Shown: piece after piece, positions 32,954 through 34,061 of the stretch | Layout of the letters: the number at the start of each line of letters is the position of its first letter | Numbering within the stretch: the first letter of the stretch is position 1 | Assembly (NCBI GenBank): GCA_001515985.1 | Contig: LOET01000149.1 | Coordinates: 1-42,684 of the forward strand | Direction: 5' to 3' | DNA: 42,684 bases | Source: Sphingomonadales bacterium BRH_c3 | GTDB lineage: Bacteria > Pseudomonadota > Alphaproteobacteria > Sphingomonadales > Sphingomonadaceae | Position numbers and translations under genes: made by a program | Notes under the pieces: model-generated | What the model saw: the letters and a program-made list of their open reading frames with translations, nothing else | The model's database searches: none | Told to the model about the DNA's origin: nothing

Positions 32954-33090
32954 ACTGGCTGAAATCAGCCGGTGCGGATGTTATACGAGCTCGATCCGGC
33001 TGGTGTCGTCTTCTGCGACCCGGACGTCACAGGCTGGTAGAGGCGGCTTCAGAGTCGCGGGGGCGGATGAATAATCCGCCCCCATTTCAT
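32954..33090 (+). ncRNA. Candidate small RNA ending at a rho-independent terminator
   Basis: Terminator 33059-33083 lies 340 bases beyond the pyrG stop, much too far to be needed for pyrG alone. Upstream of it, TTGATC (32917) and TATAAA (32942) could form a promoter, though the spacing of 19 is long. The intervening RNA could fold into stems such as CTGGCTGA-AA-TCAGCCGG and GTCG-TCTTCTG-CGAC. The 5' end is an estimate; no known family is recognised. It could instead be an extended, structured pyrG 3' UTR. Confidence 0.35.
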
Positions 33091-33135: not shown

Positions 33136-33612
33136 CTAGGCGGCGTCTGCCGCATCATCGCCTTTTTCGCTCGTTACAGCCTTGAGCTTGGGCTGGCCGT
33201 TCACCGAAATCTTCTTCGGTTTCATCGCGTCGGGGACTTCGCGTACGAGATCGATGGTCAGCAGCCCGTCAGCCAGATCGGCGCCGTCCACGCGGACATA
33301 GTCAGCCAGTTCAAAGCGGCGTTCGAACCCGCGATTGGCGATGCCGACATGCAGCATTTCGCCCGACGGCGCGTCGGCGCGCTTCTTGCCCTGGACCACC
33401 AGCAAGTTCTGCTGGGCGGTAATATCAACGTCGTCCGGACGGAACCCGGCTATCGCCAGGGTGATACGGTATTCATCTTCACCGCGGCGTTCGATATTGA
33501 AAGGGGGATAATTATCGCCCGAATTCAGCCGGGCCTGATTCTCGAGCAGGTCGAAAAGCCTGTCAAAACCAACCGTGCTGCGGCGATAGGGAGTAAAATC
33601 AAATCGTGACAT
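33136..33612 (-). CDS. Small heat-shock protein (Hsp20/IbpA family)
   Basis: ATP-independent holdase that binds unfolding proteins in the cytosol. The 158 residues comprise a short N-terminal arm with TVGFDRLFDLL (IbpA-like), an alpha-crystallin domain (about 35-130: PPFNIERRGEDEYRITLAIAG, then GIANRGFERRFELADYV and LADGLLTIDL) and a C-terminal tail ending in Asp/Ala. The tail motif is PKKISVNG, a form of the IxI anchor. The ORF track starts 12 codons early; ATG 33612 has GAGAGGA eight bases upstream. Its leader carries a ROSE-type thermometer and a RpoH-like promoter, so expression is probably controlled by heat at both transcription and translation. Confidence 0.95.
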   Translation of the reverse strand: MSRFDFTPYRRSTVGFDRLFDLLENQARLNSGDNYPPFNIERRGEDEYRITLAIAGFRPDDVDITAQQNLLVVQGKKRADAPSGEMLHVGIANRGFERRFELADYVRVDGADLADGLLTIDLVREVPDAMKPKKISVNGQPKLKAVTSEKGDDAADAA

Positions 33613-33711
33613 GATACAAATCCTCTCTAGAGCAATTTGAACGATCAAAAGCCTGCCAAAGCAGCGCTTTCATCAACCAAACCAAGGCTCCCATTGCGGC
33701 AAGCCCTGGCG
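33613..33711 (-). promoter_or_regulatory. ROSE-like RNA thermometer in the hsp20 leader
   Basis: Reading leftward, the ~98-base leader starts with an eight-base hairpin CCAGGGCT/AGCCTTGG (33709-33682, one G-U pair). It has a middle hairpin around AAAGC-GCT-GCTTT and ends in CAAATTGCTC-TAGA-GAGGATTTG (33639-33617). In this last stem TGCT pairs with the Shine-Dalgarno AGGA through a G-G mismatch, with one bulged T, exactly the arrangement described for ROSE thermometers of alphaproteobacterial hsp20 genes. The AGGA is eight bases before the ATG and fully buried. Heat melting is inferred. Confidence 0.75.
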
Positions 33712-33717
33712 GTACCC

Positions 33718-33745
33718 AGATAGTTAGAGAAAATTCGTGTTCAAG
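33718..33745 (-). promoter_or_regulatory. RpoH (sigma-32) type heat-shock promoter for hsp20
   Basis: Reading leftward, CTTGAA (33745-33740) is followed by ACTATCT (33724-33718), with 17 bases from CTTG to the -10. The elements fit the alphaproteobacterial heat-shock consensus CTTG...CYTATNT at all but one -10 position. A start near 33711 would place the first ROSE hairpin at the very 5' end of the RNA. Confidence 0.6.
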
Positions 33746-33797: not shown

Positions 33798-34061
33798 ATG
33801 ACAACGCCCAAAATCGACATCTACACCAAATTCGCGTGCCCTTTTTGTGTGCGGGCCAAGCACTTGCTCAAAAACAAGGGCGCCAGCTTCAACGAGTATG
33901 ACATCACCTTGGGCGGCCCCAAGCGCCAGGAAATGCTGGAGCGTGCGCCGGGCGCGAGGACGGTTCCACAAATCTTTATCGACGATGTCTATGTTGGCGG
34001 TTCTGACGAACTCGCGGCGCTGGAGCGTGCGGGCAAGCTTGACGCGCTACTCGGGGACTGA
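33798..34061 (+). CDS. grxC: Glutaredoxin 3
   Basis: Small dithiol glutaredoxin that reduces protein and glutathione mixed disulfides. The 87 residues include the active site FACPFCVRAK (Cys-Pro-Phe-Cys; the usual residue between Pro and Cys is Tyr, so Phe is a mild variant), the TVPQIFIDD cis-Pro loop and the GGSDEL glutathione-binding motif. The ATG has CAGGGA upstream. It is followed by a nitrilase-family gene and DUF1178 with short gaps, a cassette common in Alphaproteobacteria. It diverges from hsp20; no promoter was clear in this direction. Confidence 0.96.
   Translation: MTTPKIDIYTKFACPFCVRAKHLLKNKGASFNEYDITLGGPKRQEMLERAPGARTVPQIFIDDVYVGGSDELAALERAGKLDALLGD

Follow-up and report, generated by a model that had tools for sequence, protein, structure and literature searches.

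The window analysed here, the whole 42,684-nt stretch of contig LOET01000149.1 from Sphingomonadales bacterium BRH_c3, encodes on its minus strand a 158 aa small heat shock protein of the IbpA type (hsp20, 33,136-33,612, with its ATG at 33,612-33,610). The leader of the gene lies on the same strand, a point that the first-pass annotation had left unstated. The hsp20 product scored above the cut-off of PF00011 (E 6.9e-18; 65.1 bits, cut-off 20.8), which places the leader where a ROSE element is expected, ahead of a small heat shock protein gene. IbpA was the nearest of the NCBIfam models, the PRK10743 profile giving an E value of 1.4e-42, under its equivalog cut-off. No other Hsp20 match was present in the genome, which is 82% complete. 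The flanking genes are ordinary, with grxC transcribed divergently (33,798-34,061) and pyrG on the other side. Just beyond the 3' end of hsp20, positions 33,059-33,083 hold a terminator-like inverted repeat of 10 pairs, GGGGGCGGATGAATAATCCGCCCCC, which has a T-rich tail on the plus strand only.

The region between 33,745 and 33,613 extends from a putative -35 element through to the edge of the start codon. The RpoH (sigma-32) consensus consists of a -35 CTTGAA and, at 17-18 nt, a -10 of the alphaproteobacterial type. On the minus strand, the sequence CTTGAAC-N14-ACTATCT (that is, CTTG-N17-ACTATCT), running from 33,745 to 33,718, resembles such a promoter, with the -35 CTTGAA at 33,740-33,745 and the -10 ACTATCT at 33,718-33,724, 17 nt past the CTTG. 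The hsp20 locus was then compared with those of 80 orthologues of the protein from Erythrobacter, Altererythrobacter, Tsuneonella, Porphyrobacter and others, 81 leaders altogether. CTTGA was found in all 81 upstream regions (CTTGAAA in 64), and each carried a -10-like element 17 or 18 nt after it, CCTATCT-like in 42 and ACCAGAT-like in 39, although this -10 count is lenient, both templates having been picked by eye from the same alignment. The two -10 forms occur at equal spacing, as can be seen by comparing L008 and L031 with L003 and L007. Genome-wide, the pattern CTTGAN(16,17)MYTATNT occurred 5 times, versus once in the reversed control. An rpoH gene is encoded in the same genome (TIGR02392, 365.5 bits, above cut-off). 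The conservation of the promoter and the presence of rpoH support the RpoH-type promoter proposed in the first-pass annotation, from which RpoH would drive hsp20. Transcription is predicted to start at about 33,712, some 6 nt past the -10, giving a leader of roughly 100 nt. A first hairpin begins just 2 nt after this point, as had been anticipated for an RNA started by this promoter.

Folding predicted three hairpins in this leader, running from 33,710 to 33,681, from 33,671 to 33,647 and from 33,639 to 33,617, in line with the two to four hairpins, stable in the upstream part, that characterize ROSE elements; for the middle one there is also covariation. Hairpin 1 (33,681-33,710) appeared in the minimum free energy folds and aligned with hairpin 1 of the Rfam ROSE family. 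The penultimate, or middle, hairpin (33,647-33,671) reads GAAAGC-G-CUGC-UUUG-GCAG-GCUUUU, with a bulged G at 33,665. The last one, the putative sensor (33,617-33,639), has the sequence CAAAUUGCUC-UAGA-GAGGAUUUG (in DNA, CAAATTGCTC-TAGA-GAGGATTTG), and its stem contains the Shine-Dalgarno (SD) core AGGA (33,621-33,624), 8 nt ahead of the ATG. Facing this core (33,624-33,621) is UUGCU (33,635-33,631), which agrees with the U(U/C)GCU definition of the ROSE anti-SD (PMC3669281; PMC11342760). The sequence was as first described, with TGCT predicted to pair with AGGA and to bury the SD, the guanine being either bulged or in a G.G pair.

The Rfam ROSE model (RF00435) aligned with the leader over its full length (model positions 1-94 of 94) at 33,609-33,706, minus strand. 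This was the only match to the model reported genome-wide at E ≤ 10 (E 1.35), and its 20.1 bits fell below the gathering cut-off of 45. The covariance search, which had been put forward as a check of the first-pass proposal, returned the right strand and the right place, before hsp20, with a score that does not reach family membership. At curated cut-offs, Rfam reported nothing but a tRNA in the whole window. Similar results were obtained at 20 orthologous loci: 11 of them accounted for the 14 listed matches to ROSE or ROSE_3, each of which coincided exactly with the leader, and none attained the RF00435 cut-off, the best being 36.6. Judged from its sequence, the leader is ROSE-like by motif and by homology and is not a member of RF00435 that Rfam can call.

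Conservation across the orthologues provided strong evidence. The (U/C)GCUC...GAG(GA/AG)TTT hairpin recurred among them, all 81 leaders containing A(T/A)(T/C)GCTC, followed by GAGGATTT in 79 and by GAGAGTTT in 2, and the nucleotide preceding the motif G was U in 71 and C in 10. The motif G itself was present in 81/81 and the opposing G in 79/81, as befits a bulged or G.G guanine, the geometry of which is invisible from sequence. In the remaining leaders, L011 and L017, GAGAGTTTG replaces GAGGATTTG, which alters the SD and removes the G opposite the motif G. A structure of two helices was paired in 96.4% of the alignment cells over the 81 leaders, with 114 two-sided changes versus 34.8 ± 4.7 in shuffles, and sliding the partners by a single column lowered pairing from 96% to 53% or below. 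Nearly all of this covariation sits in the penultimate hairpin. The sensor helix was 99.5% paired and nearly invariant; it covaries little, with 4 of its 8 pairs constant and 3 varying on one side only, so its support consists of conservation and complementarity. Such near-invariance is expected, because one of its strands is the SD.

It is this comparative evidence, conservation and covariation, that raises the observation above chance. Taken without context, the motif TYGCTC-N2-10-GAGGA turned up 19 times across the 2.5 Mb genome, against 7 times in the reversed control, and it was consequently dropped as a genome-wide marker. Single-sequence energetics were also weak: the folding energy of the leader was moderately unusual relative to shuffles (z = -3.4), and its degree of SD burial was matched or bettered in 20-36% of shuffled leaders, hence not exceptional. 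Both results would suit a chance hairpin ahead of an ordinary gene, an explanation that we regard as extremely improbable and that is refuted by the 81 leaders, which come from many genera and yet agree in position, sequence and pairing.

The unexceptional burial of the SD could also point to a conserved structured 5' UTR that governs basal translation or the stability of the mRNA and hides the SD without any temperature switch, heat induction then coming from RpoH alone. The promoter is conserved as well as the hairpin, and the computed opening of the SD is gradual (unpaired probability 0.07 at 25 °C and 0.26 at 42 °C), which would also suit a leader of this kind. However, the anti-SD motif of experimentally tested ROSE thermometers, together with its destabilising G, was retained in 81/81 leaders. 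In silico deletion of the unpaired G of the motif stabilised the hairpin, folded by itself, to -8.4 kcal/mol as against -4.6 kcal/mol with the G in place, in agreement with the published effect of deleting that G in another ROSE-like thermometer (PMC11342760), and a weak point that is kept despite this cost in stability fits simple occlusion poorly. We thus consider a leader without a switch improbable, and a thermometer the better reading of these data.

A different kind of thermometer, in which the SD would be masked by the first hsp20 codons or would alternate between these and the ROSE hairpin, was suggested by folds that extended into the gene. When 24 nt of the hsp20 reading frame were folded as well, the minimum free energy structure of the window paired the SD region with hsp20 codons, the model favouring this arrangement by 0.8-1.9 kcal/mol, and the probability of the core ROSE pair was 0.13-0.28; with the leader alone the ROSE pair was dominant (0.88-0.98). 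Because pairing between the SD and the first codons competes in this way, energy models of the window by itself are not decisive. The preference is nonetheless small and comes from programs that give the non-canonical G.G and U pairs of ROSE hairpins no credit. Moreover, the orthologues favoured the ROSE hairpin, with a median probability of the core pair of 0.71-0.74 between 25 and 37 °C and values above 0.5 in 45/81 at 37 °C (median 0.71), or in 74/81 when 6 nt of coding sequence were included. Masking by the codons therefore seems unlikely, if a little less so than a leader without a switch, and the ROSE hairpin remains the preferred arrangement.

A covariance model, R1, was built from the 81 leaders, window included. 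In the genome of origin R1 found one strong site, the window (E = 2.6e-10, a score obtained by construction, as the window is part of the model), the next best having an E of 0.17. Among 201 Sphingomonadales genomes, 70 contained R1 sites. Weaker second matches to R1 coincided with sites at which RF00435 scored above its cut-off (for example G167:C4, G140:C1, G166:C2, G146:C1, G135:C9 and G192:C4), R1 also matched an above-cut-off ROSE site at G177:C1 and, reciprocally, RF00435 gave sub-threshold matches at R1-type sites (G131, G127, G163 and G194), so that the two models match each other at the same sites. Leaders of the window type and Rfam-positive leaders both precede hsp20 genes. In some genomes (G135, G140, G146, G150, G166, G167, G191 and G192) a leader of the window type occurs together with a second ROSE-type leader that exceeds the Rfam cut-off, and where loci of this second kind were read (L141-L145) they preceded hsp20 genes. 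In a class-wide sample, R1 produced weaker matches in other alphaproteobacterial families, and 12 of the 19 places outside the family adjoined an Hsp20 ORF, as called with a profile made from the orthologues. In other Alphaproteobacteria, ROSE-like anti-SD/SD hairpins were seen immediately before start codons at L120, L124, L126 and L139. The first three lacked a match to the orthologue-built Hsp20 profile, and other genes may be controlled there; the L120 and L139 proteins both start with MRLYTV.

Given the reciprocal matches between R1 and RF00435 and the shared hsp20 context, these leaders can be assigned to a divergent group within ROSE. The full-length, if sub-threshold, alignment with RF00435, the UUGCU/AGGA core and the three hairpins before an IbpA-type gene point the same way, and the ROSE identity put forward in the first-pass annotation is upheld by them. 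We therefore conclude, with a probability of about 0.9, that the hsp20 leader contains a divergent, lineage-specific thermometer of the ROSE type, transcribed from an RpoH-type promoter. In cells at growth temperature, the SD would be kept within the stem of the last hairpin, in which the conserved guanine, unpaired or in a G.G pair, and nearby weak pairs would lower the stability. Upon heat shock, RpoH would increase transcription while the hairpin opens, leaving the SD free for the 30S subunit, and the two upstream hairpins would remain folded and could assist the correct folding of the last one. For other ROSE elements, experiments have demonstrated that the SD is released as the temperature rises (PMC3669281; PMC11342760). 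The two layers combined would place hsp20 under tight heat control. By extension from the conserved leaders, control of hsp20 by a ROSE thermometer is very probably general among Erythrobacter and its relatives. These leaders are missed by annotation pipelines because they score under the curated Rfam cut-off, and the alignment of 81 sequences could serve to extend the ROSE family model.

The penultimate hairpin deserves separate consideration, as 9 of its 10 pairs showed two-sided compensatory changes and its bulged G was present in 81/81 leaders. In the RNAalifold consensus the G of the sensor motif was likewise bulged, with a pyrimidine-G pair on one side and a C-G pair on the other, and a YGC/GG module was common to both hairpins. 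According to local folds, the bulged G is apparently absent from the Rfam-positive ROSE paralogues L140-L147. It was seen in several matches from other alphaproteobacterial families, a biased observation, as the search model contains the bulge. No description of the penultimate bulged G was found in a literature comparison that did not extend to the founding B. japonicum ROSE paper, and this invariant G is the sole feature of the leader that we did not trace to a described one. A tentative and rather speculative interpretation is that the YGCY/RGG bulged-G module of the penultimate hairpin constitutes a second functional element, in which case this lineage would have a ROSE subtype of its own with two sensors, unlike the Rfam type; such an element may act as a second melting point or provide a tertiary or protein contact. 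As the role of the upstream ROSE hairpins is not fully understood (PMC3669281), a hairpin that lies ahead of the sensor and conserves a bulged G bears on that question.

In the literature collection searched, no paper joined "RNA thermometer" and Erythrobacter, and in the Sphingomonas melonis Hsp17 paper "RNA thermometer" occurs once, in the reference list, and neither "promoter" nor "UTR" occurs. With regard to known systems, ROSE_3 (RF02523) covers the last two hairpins in some relatives, with up to 40.4 bits; it was rejected as a better home for the leader, as it had no match in the window, and none of the 201 Sphingomonadales genomes sampled reached its cut-off. The short ROSE-like ibpA thermometers of Pseudomonas (PMC3669281) have two hairpins in about 61-62 nt, whereas the window leader has three in about 100 nt; the leaders of the relatives L012, L064, L076 and L078 are only about 62 nt long. 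The ROSE-G motif likewise has two guanines facing each other in the SD helix, but it contains CUGCU and precedes ABC transporter genes (PMC12857270), whereas leaders of the window type carry UUGCU or UCGCU before hsp20. Also close is the ROSE element of the Bradyrhizobium hspA type (RF00435), with which the window leader shares a three-hairpin alignment over the full length, the UUGCU anti-SD, an SD within the last hairpin and a small heat shock protein gene downstream, and from which it differs in scoring less than half the cut-off of that family and in the conserved penultimate bulged G, absent from the Rfam consensus.
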